A stretch of DNA of 43,180 nt, taken from positions 1 to 43,180 of the forward strand of contig JAKMEW010000403.1 in assembly GCA_022425745.1 (NCBI GenBank). Direction: 5' to 3'. The notes beneath the pieces were generated by a model that did not search any database, was not told the origin of the DNA, and saw only the letters and a program-made list of their open reading frames with translations. Shown in pieces: positions 21,035 through 34,886 of the stretch. The stretch comes from Rubripirellula sp. (lineage in GTDB: Bacteria; Planctomycetota; Planctomycetia; Pirellulales; Pirellulaceae). Positions within the stretch are counted from its first letter, which is position 1. Each line of letters begins with the position of its first letter. Made by a program: the position numbers and the translations under genes.

Positions 21035-21347
21035 TCTGGCTGCGTTACGGAGAAAAGCAAACTGCTTAGAAACCGTTTCGGCTTGAAACAGGTCCGGAAT
21101 TAGCCGGAAAAGCAGTCACGATCGACTAAACCGCTCCTAATGGGAATGCCGATAGTGACGGTAGAACGAGTTTCCATCGGTATGTGGCGGGTGTGCACAC
21201 ACCCAATCAAACCAGCTCGAAATCGCCGAGATTATTGAGAAAACTCCCCGCTAAGAGTCTCCTCAAAAGTCTGGCCCAACAGCAAAACACAATTCTCGTC
21301 GTTGCCATCAAACAATGGGATCGACCGTCTCGAGGGGGGACGTCTGA

Positions 21348-21671
21348 ATGTTACGTCATCTATTGATTGCCGCTGTGCTGCTCTGCAGCTACGCAGTTGG
21401 AACAGAATCGGCGACCGCGGAACAAAAGGCCTACGGTCGCGCGTGGGGAGGACAAGCCGATTTTCGTGATTGGAATCGTTTCTATCACTACCCATATGTC
21501 TACTATCCCCAAAACTTCTACGGGCAAGAGTATTTCCGTAGCAATGATAGTCTCTACCATCGCTACCCTGCGGAAATGAGAATCCCCGTTTACAACAAGC
21601 AGTGGCATAATTTCTATCCGAGCAACCGAAGGTTCCACAGCGGACACCACTTCATGCTCGACGTGTTTTAA
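21348..21671 (+). CDS. Small exported Tyr/Phe/Arg/His-rich protein
   Basis: MLRHLLIAAVLLCSYAVGTESATA signal peptide, then FYHYPYVYYPQNFYGQEYFRSNDSLYHRYPAEMRIPVYNKQWHNFYPSNRRFHSGHH; purine-rich stretch (gagggggacg) upstream. Confidence 0.72.
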   Translation: MLRHLLIAAVLLCSYAVGTESATAEQKAYGRAWGGQADFRDWNRFYHYPYVYYPQNFYGQEYFRSNDSLYHRYPAEMRIPVYNKQWHNFYPSNRRFHSGHHFMLDVF

Positions 21672-21850: not shown

Positions 21851-23260
21851 ATGTCAGCCAGCACAAAGATTCGTCGACTGACTCGTTTACTGGAGTCACC
21901 TGATGCGATTGTGTGGTGCATCAACCACGCTGACGAACTTGTGTTCGTCTCCGCGGGCTGCGCTGCGTGGTTAGGAGTGGATGGTGAAACATTAATCGGG
22001 CGGAAATCTAAAGCGGGCACGCCTGTTTCAGGTAGCACTGAAGATTCAATCGCAGCGAGTCTCTCTCCACCTCCGGGTTTTCGCCGACGCGGTACAGCCA
22101 CTCTCAAAATACATCCGCTTGCGGGAAACGGCTTGCGCGCAGTCAGCCGAGAGGTGCGTTACGTTCGTGTTGGGGATCGAGAAACCGGCTTCACGCTCGG
22201 GGTCGCAAGCGACTTCGAGGATCGCCAGGTCGAATCAGATATTCAAGATGCGGTCGCCACGCGGCAACGTCTCGATCTTTGGCGACAGAGGAATTCAGGT
22301 CTTAGTCTCGCTCTGCTCTCAGGGTCATCAATCGAGGCCAAGCGGCTCCGCAGAAAAATCGGTATCGCTTGTTCTGTGCGGACCCATGTTGGACTCTTCC
22401 AGCCAAACGGAGGTGGCGCGGATCTTCTCGCTTTACACATCCACCACCAATCCGCCCCCGGCGAACCGCTAATCCAACTCGATGGACCATTACTAGACCC
22501 TGAACTACTGATTACGGCTTTGACACCGCTTCTGAACCATCTAAACGCGTCCGACGAGTCCCGGGGATCAGTGCTGTGTAAGCAGATTGATTACACCTCA
22601 ATTGCGACACAGCAGCAACTTTGGACCATTCTGGAGAGCTTTCAGGACCGATTACGTCTCCTGACTGTTGCTGGATTATCACCATTCATCATTAATCGAG
22701 AGCAACAACTTCAAAGTGAATCCAGCGAAGGCCTAAACTCAGGGGTTCTCTGCAACCAGTTAAGCGATTTGATTGACACGGTTCAGATCTCCTGTTCACC
22801 GCTCTCAAATCGTATCGAGGATTTGCAAGCGATGGCGACTGCATTAATGGCACGCTATTCCACACAGCACAAAACCACCGCGGAATATCTTAGCCGGCCT
22901 GCTCTTGATTCATTGGTTAACTACCCTTGGCCCAATAATTTCGTGGAGTTACAAGAGGCGATGGATCATGCGAGCCAGAATGCATCTGGTGAGTCCATTC
23001 AAGTAGAGCATCTTCCCCTCAGTATTCGATCCTACCGCCCTCCACTCCCCCATCCTCCCAAAAAGAGGCGTTCGCTCGATCAATTGATTCAAAAATACGA
23101 AGATTCACTTTTGAATGAGGCGATGATTGCGGCGAACAACAACCGCGCCGAAGCCGCAAGAAGCCTGGGTATATCTCGGTCTCGGCTACTCAGAAAACTC
23201 GAGCAAATGGAAGCAAAGCTACCCGAGGGCGGTGAGACCACTAATGAGCTTCAACGTTGA
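21851..23260 (+). CDS. PAS - degenerate AAA+ (sigma54 activator-like) - Fis-type HTH regulator
   Basis: PAS-like N-terminus (SPDAIVWCINHADELVFVSAGCAAWLGVDGETLIGR); AAA lid-like SPLSNRIEDLQAMATALMARY...LSRPALDSLVNYPWPNNFVELQEAMDHA; C-terminal LLNEAMIAANNNRAEAARSLGISRSRLLRKLEQM (Fis HTH). Confidence 0.82.
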   Translation: MSASTKIRRLTRLLESPDAIVWCINHADELVFVSAGCAAWLGVDGETLIGRKSKAGTPVSGSTEDSIAASLSPPPGFRRRGTATLKIHPLAGNGLRAVSREVRYVRVGDRETGFTLGVASDFEDRQVESDIQDAVATRQRLDLWRQRNSGLSLALLSGSSIEAKRLRRKIGIACSVRTHVGLFQPNGGGADLLALHIHHQSAPGEPLIQLDGPLLDPELLITALTPLLNHLNASDESRGSVLCKQIDYTSIATQQQLWTILESFQDRLRLLTVAGLSPFIINREQQLQSESSEGLNSGVLCNQLSDLIDTVQISCSPLSNRIEDLQAMATALMARYSTQHKTTAEYLSRPALDSLVNYPWPNNFVELQEAMDHASQNASGESIQVEHLPLSIRSYRPPLPHPPKKRRSLDQLIQKYEDSLLNEAMIAANNNRAEAARSLGISRSRLLRKLEQMEAKLPEGGETTNELQR

Positions 23261-23663
23261 AACATTCGATCAGGAACGAGCTTTTGTTGACTGGGTGATC
23301 CTCGAAAATGGCGAACGATGGACAAACTGCATTCGTCGATTCCATCAGGATCTGCTTGGCTCGGATGTTGATGTGCATATCCGTCAGGTGCATCACCATG
23401 GTGATTTACGGGTCCCCACCTCAACACGTCCCACGGTCTTTTTGTTGGAGGTCGGTACTTCCAATTTTGTCGATTCGCTCGACACCTTAACGCAAAAACT
23501 TTGCTCTCCTTCTAACCAACTGTGGCTCATTGCTTGCAATCGTCTGTCCCTCAATCGCCGACTAGTTTTGGGCGAATTGAACATCGCTGGTTTTCTCGAA
23601 CAGCCCGAGAATATTCTGCGGTTTAAGCCGATTCTCGATGGCTACTTCGCAAGAGTGTTCTGA
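23244..23663 (+). CDS. Small hypothetical protein, possibly a degenerate response-regulator receiver-like fold
   Basis: The ORF track starts at 23127, but ATG at 23244 (MSFNVETFDQERAFVDW) fits better, overlapping the regulator stop by 17 nt; TRPTVFLLEVGTSNFVDSLDTLTQKL...QLWLIACNRLSLNRRLVLGELNIAGFLEQPEN resembles a receiver beta/alpha pattern without the Asp pocket. Confidence 0.6.
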   Translation: MSFNVETFDQERAFVDWVILENGERWTNCIRRFHQDLLGSDVDVHIRQVHHHGDLRVPTSTRPTVFLLEVGTSNFVDSLDTLTQKLCSPSNQLWLIACNRLSLNRRLVLGELNIAGFLEQPENILRFKPILDGYFARVF

Positions 23664-23808: not shown

Positions 23809-24888
23809 ATGTCCAATTCCATCACCGACACGATCCGCACAGCCATCGGTAACTACCCTGACCCTGAAACAGGTCGCTCGATCGAAAGCATGGGACAAAT
23901 CCGATCCATTGAGGTTCAAGGAGAATGTGTCGAGATTGAGCTTGCACTGAGCTCACACTCAATGCCAATCAAGGAAGATTTTGTCGACGCAATTGAGTCA
24001 AGAATTGCAGCGGCGGCACCCGGCACAAAAACCAATATCACGCTCTCCATTCATGACCGGCCTCCTGTCAGGCTTGGACAGATTGCGCTGCGTGCTAAAA
24101 GTGTGATTGCGGTAGGAAGTGGCAAAGGAGGAGTGGGAAAAAGCACCGTGGCAGCCAGTCTTGCTGTATCCCTGCAAAGATTAGGATCCAAGGTCGGACT
24201 TTTGGATGCTGACGTGTACGGACCAAGCATACCCCAGTTACTGGGGCTATCTGGTCGCCCAGCAGTCAATGCAAATAAGAAGATAGAACCCATCTGTTCT
24301 AAAAGCGGAATGCCGGTGATGTCGATGGGGTTTCTCGTTGAACCTGATCAGGCGGTGATTTGGCGAGGGCCGATGCTCCACGGATCGATCAATCAATTCT
24401 TGGGTGACACCAATTGGGGTGAATTGGATTATCTGATCATCGATATGCCACCGGGCACAGGAGACATCGCTCTAACCATTTCACAAGCAATCCCACTCGC
24501 AGGTGCGGTTGTCGTCTGCACGCCGCAGGAGGTCGCTTTGCTGGACGCCATCAAGGCGATCAGCATGTTCAGAAAGGTAAATATTCCCCTTCTCGGGATG
24601 GTAGAGAATATGAGCGGATTCCTGTGTCCTGATTGCGGCAAAACCTACGACATTTTTGGTAGGGGTGGGGCGAGAGAAAAAGCGGAGCAGTCAAACGTGC
24701 CGTTTCTCGGCTGCTTGCCAATTGATATCTCGCTGCGCACTGCGGGGGACGAAGGCGAACTAGACCAAGTCATCACCAATGACGAGCGTGCACGAGCACC
24801 GCTGGAAGGTGTCGCCAAAGCTGTGGTGAGACAGATCGTGGCCCAGGCCTCTGCAAAACCCAACCAGAGTTCATTGCCAGTCCTATAA
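23809..24888 (+). CDS. mrp: Mrp/NBP35-family P-loop ATPase (Fe-S carrier), with N-terminal MIP18-like domain
   Basis: VIAVGSGKGGVGKSTVAASLAVSLQRLGSKVGLLDADVYGPSIPQLLG; DYLIIDMPPGTGDIALTISQ; GMVENMSGFLCPDCGKTYDIFG (CxxC). Confidence 0.95.
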   Translation: MSNSITDTIRTAIGNYPDPETGRSIESMGQIRSIEVQGECVEIELALSSHSMPIKEDFVDAIESRIAAAAPGTKTNITLSIHDRPPVRLGQIALRAKSVIAVGSGKGGVGKSTVAASLAVSLQRLGSKVGLLDADVYGPSIPQLLGLSGRPAVNANKKIEPICSKSGMPVMSMGFLVEPDQAVIWRGPMLHGSINQFLGDTNWGELDYLIIDMPPGTGDIALTISQAIPLAGAVVVCTPQEVALLDAIKAISMFRKVNIPLLGMVENMSGFLCPDCGKTYDIFGRGGAREKAEQSNVPFLGCLPIDISLRTAGDEGELDQVITNDERARAPLEGVAKAVVRQIVAQASAKPNQSSLPVL

Positions 24889-24983: not shown

Positions 24984-25247
24984 TTAGCGACGCTTTTTAG
25001 CGGCTTTCTTAGTAGCACGCTTCTTGGTTGCTTTCTTGGCAGCCTTTTTCTTAGCAGCCTTTTTCTTGGTAGCTTTTTTCTTAGCAACTTTCTTAGTTGC
25101 TTTTTTAGCTGCCTTTTTCTTAGCTGCTTTCTTTTTAGCAACTTTCTTAGTTGCTTTTTTAGCTGCCTTCTTCTTGGTAGCCTTTTTGACTGCCTTTTTT
25201 GCAGTAGCCTTCTTAGCCACTTTCTTCTTCGCTTTTTTCTTGGCCAC
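24984..25247 (-). CDS. Histone H1-like Lys/Ala-rich DNA-binding protein (start GTG at 25247, not the ORF-track 25334)
   Basis: VAKKKAKKKVAKKATAKKAVKKATKKKAAKKATKKVAKKKAAKK...; a Shine-Dalgarno-like GGAGG precedes the GTG (gcGGAGGaaaacGTGGCC on the minus strand). Confidence 0.85.
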   Translation of the reverse strand: MAKKKAKKKVAKKATAKKAVKKATKKKAAKKATKKVAKKKAAKKKAAKKATKKVAKKKATKKKAAKKKAAKKATKKRATKKAAKKRR

Positions 25248-25600
25248 GTTTTCCTCCGCTGAGAAAAGATACGCTGGCGAGTCTTCGTGACTTGTAAAGC
25301 GCCGCTTTAAAAGCCACCGGCCACGGCTCACCAATCGTCATTGGTGGTTAAGAAGTTGAAGCTTTGATGCAAAGCATCGGTCCTGCTTCTCCTCATAACC
25401 GTTACAAACTTCGCGTAACTTTACGCGCTTCCAGAGATTCCGCAACATCTTTTTCTAAAAAAAGTGGTTGCAAGGAAAAATTTTTTTGGTAAGCGACCAA
25501 GTAAATGACAGCCTCCCAAGCTCCTTCCGTCTGATCCTGATCGTCATCAAAGCATAAAAACATCAAACAAAGTTTTCAAAGTTCTTCGAAAGCTGTGTCG

Positions 25601-33701: not shown

Positions 33702-34886
33702 CTAATCCCAATCTTCATCATCGTCGTCGTCGTCATCCGAGTCGTCATCCCAGTCGTCGTCTGACTCTTCATCGTCGTCCCAATCATCATCATCATCGTC
33801 ATCGTCATCGTCATCCGAATCGTCGACTTCTTCCCAAGATTCTTCTTCGAGATCGTCATCTGACTCTTCATCGTCGTCATCTTCATCATCGACGTCTTCA
33901 TCATCCCAATCATCGTCGTCGCTGCTCGACCAATCATCTTCCTCTTCATCGTCATCATTATCGTAGTACTCGTTCTCTTCGTCGTCCAATTGTGAAGTTG
34001 GGGACGAGTTGAGAACACACTCGTTGAAAGTGGCATGCTGATCAGCACTTCGATCAACGACTGCTAATTCTGTCTCAGCAAGAACCGGCGCGACAGTAGT
34101 ACTCACGACAAGCTCCTTCGTGGATGTCGATGTCTCTTGGTTTAGTGAATCTTCAATCGGATCGTCTTGCAACGATTCCACCTGAATCGGCGGTAAAGAT
34201 TCGATGCTACGCAATCCAAAAAGTTGTAAAAAACGTTTGGTCGTTCCGTAAAGATAGGGTCGCCCCAGTTCTTCACTTCTTCCGACAATTCGAACCAAAT
34301 CACGTTCCATTAACTGGCGTAATATCTCACCACATCCTACCCCACGGACTGCCTCCGCATTCGCTCGGGAAACCGGTTGGTGGTAGGCAACGACAGCCAA
34401 AGTTTCCATCATCGGAGTTGATATCCGCACTGAAGGAGGCAAATGACCCAATCGAGTTAACCAAGGTGCCAGACTGGGATGTGTGAACATCCTATAACCG
34501 CCGGCAACCTGTTCAACCCTGATTGCCCTGTGATGCAATTCGTAAATTTGGTTGAGTTCGCGAACAAGTGTACGAGCCTGTGTAGCATCCGCCAAGTAAG
34601 CCAGTTGAGCCAGCTTTCTCGGGCTAAGTGCCGTTTTAGAAAGTAGCAAAATCGCTTCGGTGCGTAATCTGGCTGATCGCGGATCGAGTGGTTCGCCACT
34701 TGACTCAATCTGTGTCGTCCCGGCCGCGTCATCTGATTCAGTGTCAGTTGCGAAGTTCGTTACATTTCTTGAAAAATTTGTCTGTGTGGTTAGCCGATAA
34801 CCCCAACCCCTGGGAAGGGGTTGGCACAATTCTGACCGGATCGAGGTTTTCAAACCGCGTTTCGTGAGAAAATGAGCTTGATCCAT
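33702..34886 (-). CDS. scpB: ScpB-family segregation/condensation protein with long Asp/Glu/Trp-rich C-terminal tail (N-terminal start uncertain)
   Basis: RTEAILLLSKTALSPRKLAQLAYLADATQARTLVRELNQIYELHHRAIRVEQVAGGYRMFTHPSLAPWL...MMETLAVVAYHQPVSRANAEAVRGVGCGEILRQLMERDLVRIVGRSEELGRPYLYGTTKRFLQLFGL; tail ...DDDDDDDDDDDWDDDEESDDDWDDDSDDDDDDDEDWD. Confidence 0.92.
   Translation of the reverse strand: MDQAHFLTKRGLKTSIRSELCQPLPRGWGYRLTTQTNFSRNVTNFATDTESDDAAGTTQIESSGEPLDPRSARLRTEAILLLSKTALSPRKLAQLAYLADATQARTLVRELNQIYELHHRAIRVEQVAGGYRMFTHPSLAPWLTRLGHLPPSVRISTPMMETLAVVAYHQPVSRANAEAVRGVGCGEILRQLMERDLVRIVGRSEELGRPYLYGTTKRFLQLFGLRSIESLPPIQVESLQDDPIEDSLNQETSTSTKELVVSTTVAPVLAETELAVVDRSADQHATFNECVLNSSPTSQLDDEENEYYDNDDDEEEDDWSSSDDDDWDDEDVDDEDDDDEESDDDLEEESWEEVDDSDDDDDDDDDDDWDDDEESDDDWDDDSDDDDDDDEDWD

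Follow-up and report, generated by a model that had tools for sequence, protein, structure and literature searches.

A gene pair predicted to encode a sigma54-type AAA+ regulator without GAFTGA or Walker motifs and a stand-alone pseudo-receiver

Background

VpsR of Vibrio cholerae is an AAA+ regulator in which the receiver is fused to the AAA+ chain. It has been reported to work at sigma70 promoters without ATP (PMC10274813). NtrC of Rhodobacter capsulatus and Caulobacter, from which loop 1 including the GAFTGA motif is deleted, is also found at sigma70 promoters (PMC10274813), and TyrR, DhaR, and HupR, once sigma54 activators, have no working GAFTGA and are sigma70-dependent (PMC3162934). Single regulators outside the sigma54 pathway are known already; the family described here is kept over much of a bacterial class.

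In CpaE/TadZ proteins a MinD-like ATPase is fused to a receiver. FleN, a SIMIBI ATPase, binds to the AAA+ domain of a separate protein, the sigma54-type regulator FleQ, and controls that domain (PMC10723142). For receivers that lack the phosphorylated aspartate, glutamate is the commonest replacement (PMC4395418). Glutamate can mimic phosphorylation in NtrC, although a 2025 review cautions against generalizing from this and calls the mode of action of pseudo-receivers a mystery (PMC12632262).

Here we describe two overlapping genes, called REG and SMALL, in the window, which is the whole 43,180-nt stretch of Rubripirellula sp. DNA that was analyzed. The coordinates, reading frames and 17-nt overlap (23244-23260) given for them in a preliminary description proved correct.

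21851..23260, + strand: REG, 469 aa, a predicted regulator with PAS domain, degenerate sigma54-type AAA+ domain, lid and Fis HTH
23244..23663, + strand: SMALL, 139 aa, a predicted stand-alone pseudo-receiver, overlapping REG by 17 nt

We consider it probable that REG regulates outside the sigma54 pathway, binding DNA without a need for ATP and with its AAA+ domain as a scaffold, and that it works with SMALL at promoters of the main sigma factor, including those of Fe-S genes.

Results and Discussion

Comparison with described systems

REG resembles VpsR in having an AAA+ domain without GAFTGA and a Fis HTH, and the REG-SMALL pair shares with it a receiver-type regulatory domain that does not need phosphorylation. 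However, the receiver is encoded by a separate gene and REG begins with a PAS domain. The deletion of loop 1 including GAFTGA is a feature that REG shares with NtrC of R. capsulatus and Caulobacter. Those proteins differ in binding ATP (in Caulobacter the residues for hydrolysis are also present) and in carrying a phosphorylated receiver, whereas REG has a PAS domain and is missing both Walker motifs. Like TyrR, DhaR, and HupR, REG descends from sigma54 activators and has no working GAFTGA. However, it scores far under the equivalog cut-offs; DhaR is its top NCBIfam match (2.6e-19, far under the cut-off). To our knowledge no separate pseudo-receiver gene accompanies TyrR, DhaR, or HupR.

Domain organization of REG

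21851..22210, + strand: PAS domain of REG, residues 1-120, with family-level Pfam matches and modelled strands and helices
22808..23038, + strand: AAA lid of REG, residues 320-396 (AAA_lid_14, 2.3e-12), with the sensor II arginine lost
23099..23206, + strand: Fis-type HTH of REG, residues 417-452 (HTH_8, 1.2e-6), kept in 24/24 members scanned

Profile searches and structure prediction agree on this architecture, in which the PAS domain is followed by a helical linker and by a sigma54-type AAA+ core at residues ~158-317. Of 24 REG orthologues, up to 13 have a Pfam match to PAS families, while the match to the REG of the window alone is not significant. Of the 24 family members, 23 have a Pfam match to the sigma54 AAA core, the best at 1.3e-21, and the match of Sigma54_activ_2 to the REG of the window is marginal (0.014). 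Residues 160-451 align to ZraR with a phmmer E-value of 1.6e-14. The core is modelled by AlphaFold2 at a pLDDT of ~90, and the best fold matches include VpsR (7v2b, 3e-11) and FleQ. REG is thus predicted to have the fold of an enhancer-binding protein, a sigma54-type AAA+ domain with lid and Fis HTH. The preliminary description had recognized the layout of a sigma54 activator in the C-terminal half of the protein, and the lid and HTH matches bear this out.

SMALL, a predicted pseudo-receiver

23448..23450, + strand: codon for Glu69 of SMALL, aligned to the receiver phospho-Asp (hhalign)

Pfam and PDB sequence searches with SMALL returned no meaningful match. The AlphaFold2 model has a receiver-like alpha/beta fold (pLDDT 88, pTM 0.81), and SMALL is aligned to receivers over its full length by hhalign with a probability of 94%. 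Its top PDB fold matches in Foldseek are the atypical receivers of CpaE/TadZ (E 9e-5, TM ~0.6), with many receivers besides. SMALL nevertheless differs from the CpaE/TadZ fusions, as its 139 aa stand alone and the MinD-class gene of the locus, mrp, is separate.

At the positions that characterize receivers, SMALL has Glu21 as the first acidic residue, Glu69 for the phospho-Asp, Cys98 for the threonine, and Gln120 for the lysine. Among 94 members from the same order, 67 carry Glu at position 69 and 3 carry Asp. SMALL therefore has the predicted fold of a receiver but not its phospho-Asp, Lys, or Thr/Ser, as in aspartate-less receivers, and the modelled pocket is occupied by glutamate. The lysine and threonine that a phosphomimic needs are both absent. 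An earlier reading of SMALL as receiver-like but without a clear phospho-acceptor pocket is consistent with the fold and the missing catalytic residues; the phospho-acceptor position itself, however, holds a conserved glutamate. As a stand-alone pseudo-receiver, SMALL would be a clean case for learning how pseudo-receivers work.

Membership in the Pfam VpsR domain was considered and rejected for SMALL. One distant SMALL passes the cut-off (2.8e-5) but the other SMALLs fail, and the model also weakly matches many ORFs of response-regulator length. This match is therefore read only as a signal of the receiver clan.

Gene neighborhood

23809..24888, + strand: mrp/apbC, Fe-S cluster carrier P-loop ATPase, the conserved third gene and the sole copy found in the genome

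We compared 123 distinct REG loci of the order, each with at least 1.3 kb downstream. SMALL lies beside REG in 92 of them and mrp in 83. The full series REG-SMALL-mrp is present in 80, and this arrangement occurs in ten of the 18 families encountered. In a family of another order (f23), a SMALL-like gene adjoins REG in 18 of 21 loci, and the SMALL sets of the two orders are related by profile (hhalign probability 98%). The length of the overlap between REG and SMALL varies (17, 4, 1, or 0 nt, or a short gap) while adjacency is kept. The wider neighborhood is syntenic inside the genus, so conservation at that level carries little weight and the evidence lies in conservation between families. 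By this comparison of sequences the REG-SMALL gene order is conserved, in agreement with the gene pair proposed in the preliminary description.

It is nonetheless conceivable, if rather unlikely, that REG and SMALL are both functional but unrelated, and that inherited gene order gives them co-expression only. Neither SMALL nor mrp lies beside REG in 28 of the 123 loci, and 17 loci read from four further families (f21, f22, f24, and f25) yielded no SMALL next to REG. SMALL is thus not obligatory, at least as a neighbor. The conservation of the wider neighborhood in the genus also fits this reading, and adjacency can last without interaction. However, ten or more families and a second order have kept the pair while the other neighbors mostly differ, and a receiver-type partner is expected for this regulator family. 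We prefer the reading in which REG and SMALL work together.

The third gene was missed by the preliminary description, as was the gene that stands in its place in the other order, where in 17 of the 21 f23 loci the SMALL-like gene is followed at once by a gene for a 2[4Fe-4S] ferredoxin. The presence of Fe-S genes in third place in two orders suggests, but does not prove, a link of REG-SMALL to Fe-S biology, and offers a concrete hypothesis of function in a little-studied phylum. A more specific proposal, which we put forward tentatively as one possibility, is that REG and SMALL form an undescribed regulator of Fe-S homeostasis in this class, a pseudo-ATPase of sigma54-activator descent under the control of a free pseudo-receiver subunit, wired to Fe-S proteins (Mrp in one order, ferredoxin in another) that report on or supply clusters. 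The gap between SMALL and mrp, 145 nt in the window, is often 50-280 nt, so mrp may have its own promoter.

Mrp might also act on REG directly. REG and Mrp resemble FleQ and FleN in combining a sigma54-type AAA+ regulator with a SIMIBI ATPase as a separate protein, and Mrp, with an intact GKGGVGKS P-loop and a NUBPL/MinD-class domain, could supply the nucleotide control of REG in trans, hence the loss of REG's own ATPase. The frequency of mrp as third gene, the match of the REG fold to FleQ chains, including that from the FleN-FleQ complex (7ejw), and the FleQ-FleN precedent itself are in keeping with this idea. However, most sigma54-type AAA domains match REG about equally well by fold, FleQ has kept its Walker motifs, and mrp is absent beside REG in 40 of the 123 loci and replaced by ferredoxin in f23. 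Additionally, Mrp carries FeS_assembly as its N-terminal domain and is matched best in NCBIfam by Fe-S carriers, so a housekeeping role is enough to account for it. We regard a FleN-like role of Mrp as unlikely.

Loss of the nucleotide and GAFTGA motifs

22400..22423, + strand: degenerate Walker A of REG, QPNGGGAD, residues 184-191, with Lys replaced by Ala190
22484..22546, + strand: former loop 1 site of REG, residues 212-232, GPLLDPELLITALTPLLNHLN, with GAFTGA deleted
22562..22588, + strand: degenerate Walker B of REG, RGSVLCKQI, residues 238-246, with DE replaced by K244 Q245

Alignment to canonical activators of the same genome places QPNGGGAD at the canonical GExGxGKE and KQ at the DE of Walker B. 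In REG 54 residues separate the two Walker motifs, compared with 65 in these activators, because loop 1 with GAFTGA is deleted. The GAFTGA loop 1, Walker A, and Walker B of enhancer-binding proteins are therefore all missing. The same absences were noted in the preliminary description, which took orthologues with GAFTGA as evidence that would speak against it; we found GAFTGA in 0 of 129 distinct orthologues of the same order. The Walker B aspartate occurs in 1 of the 129 and the Walker A lysine in 10, with arginine in its place in 67, and no orthologue has both key Walker residues. The sensor II arginine is found in 11, and residues at the two arginine-finger positions in 38 and 28. Judged by these alignments, the loss of the nucleotide motifs and GAFTGA is real and shared by orthologues rather than local damage.

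The loss of Walker A needs a qualification, as some orthologues, above all in other orders of the class, have this motif intact. Orthologues from other orders of the class are without GAFTGA and, with one exception, without the Walker B aspartate; their Walker A is mostly intact (GEPGTGKE). Nucleotide binding would therefore have gone at a late stage and in just part of the family, and it is likely that GAFTGA and Walker B were lost first and the P-loop afterwards. The two-protein regulatory unit of the preliminary description needs the same qualification, in that the motif losses, the conserved pair, and the pseudo-receiver agree with it, while the P-loop is lost only in part of the family. 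The steps of decay are still visible, from an intact Walker A in sister orders through replacement of Lys by Arg to full loss, with GAFTGA and Walker B gone throughout. These natural variants allow the role of an AAA+ fold that does not burn ATP to be tested.

The same variants raise the question of whether REG binds ATP or another nucleotide as a switch without hydrolyzing it, like NtrC of R. capsulatus. Other orders mostly keep GExGxGKE and many members of the order retain GPxGSGR, with Lys replaced by Arg. However, the lineage of the window has QPNGGGAD, with neither Lys nor Arg, and has also lost Walker B, the arginine fingers, and sensor II, so we find a nucleotide switch improbable. Given the loss of loop 1 with GAFTGA, Walker B, the arginine fingers, and sensor II, and of the P-loop too in the lineage of the window, REG would be unable to hydrolyze ATP or engage sigma54.

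Descent and selection

Full-length REG members, with a match from the PAS domain on, are spread across the class. In a sample of 148 genomes from the phylum, most matches outside the class begin close to the AAA domain. The two longer matches that were examined have Walker motifs together with GAFTGA or a motif very like it. In a tree computed by a quick method, with the motif columns left out and SH-aLRT rather than bootstrap support, all canonical activators from the same genome and from other bacteria are split from the REG members by a branch with 100% SH-aLRT, and each REG lineage forms its own group. REG thus descends from the activator family and has lost GAFTGA, as have other GAFTGA-less activators. 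Measured against the closest relative (78% identity), REG has a dN/dS of 0.10, SMALL of 0.26, and Mrp of 0.04. These values indicate that REG and SMALL are not decaying freely, though both evolve faster than Mrp. The comparisons support REG members as one family by common descent, under purifying selection.

It is very improbable that REG is the decaying remnant of a sigma54 activator. REG evolves faster than its neighbors (within the genus mostly 40-78% identity, compared with 70-92% for mrp). However, a relic or pseudogene is contradicted by the dN/dS of 0.10, obtained at dS = 1.35, and by class-wide retention; in addition, the frames are open, with no stops in the full-length order members listed, and the HTH and lid have invariant residues. 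We give next to no credence to REG as a still working sigma54 activator with unusual motifs, since, despite the shared fold and lid and the sigma54 of the genome, essentially all members have a deletion of loop 1 and no longer have Walker B, and known activators need both. The genome of the window has sigma54 and nine canonical activators, so REG is no stand-in for them.

Proposed mode of action

REG would be a former sigma54 activator that binds DNA without ATP hydrolysis, its AAA+ fold serving as a scaffold for assembly and partner binding between the PAS sensor domain and the Fis HTH. Canonical activators have their regulatory part fused at the N terminus; SMALL most likely takes this role in trans, as a separate subunit, and may contact REG directly. 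Protein contact or level, and not phosphorylation, would set the state of SMALL. The GAFTGA-less activators at sigma70 promoters, some of them independent of ATP, provide the analogy by which REG may be ATP-independent, use its AAA+ domain for assembly, and control sigma70 promoters. Promoters of the main sigma factor are the probable targets of the pair, for example those of Fe-S metabolism genes such as the mrp of its own cluster, and the signal that the pair receives could be tied to Fe-S.

Upstream region and other features of the window

21348..21671, + strand: 107-aa gene without assigned function, with 76-98% identity inside the genus, present in two other families as well

This gene is found in the same place and on the same strand upstream of REG in relatives, and is far better conserved than REG. 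Its product has a hydrophobic N terminus, is rich in Tyr, Phe, and His, and has no Pfam or NCBIfam match. The gap to REG is ~13 nt in some genus members, which makes a private REG promoter unlikely in those members. A search upstream of the cluster for conserved palindromes as a REG site found none clearly above shuffles.

Directly 5' of the 107-aa gene is CGTCTCGAGGGGGGACG (21326-21342, + strand), 10-mers of which occur in 14-15 of 19 upstream regions. It has one match in the window, where 0.02 are expected, and is possibly a leader element. Farther upstream, k-mers of TGCCGATAGTGACG (21147-21160, + strand) occur in ~14 of 19 upstream regions; at two mismatches 0.29 matches are expected by chance in the window.

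Elsewhere in the window, a Lys/Ala-rich repetitive protein (KKATKKVAKKKAAKK) is encoded at 24984-25334 on the - strand, a short part of which is conserved in relatives. A scpB-like gene at 33702-34886, also on the - strand, encodes a long acidic tail rich in Asp and Glu.
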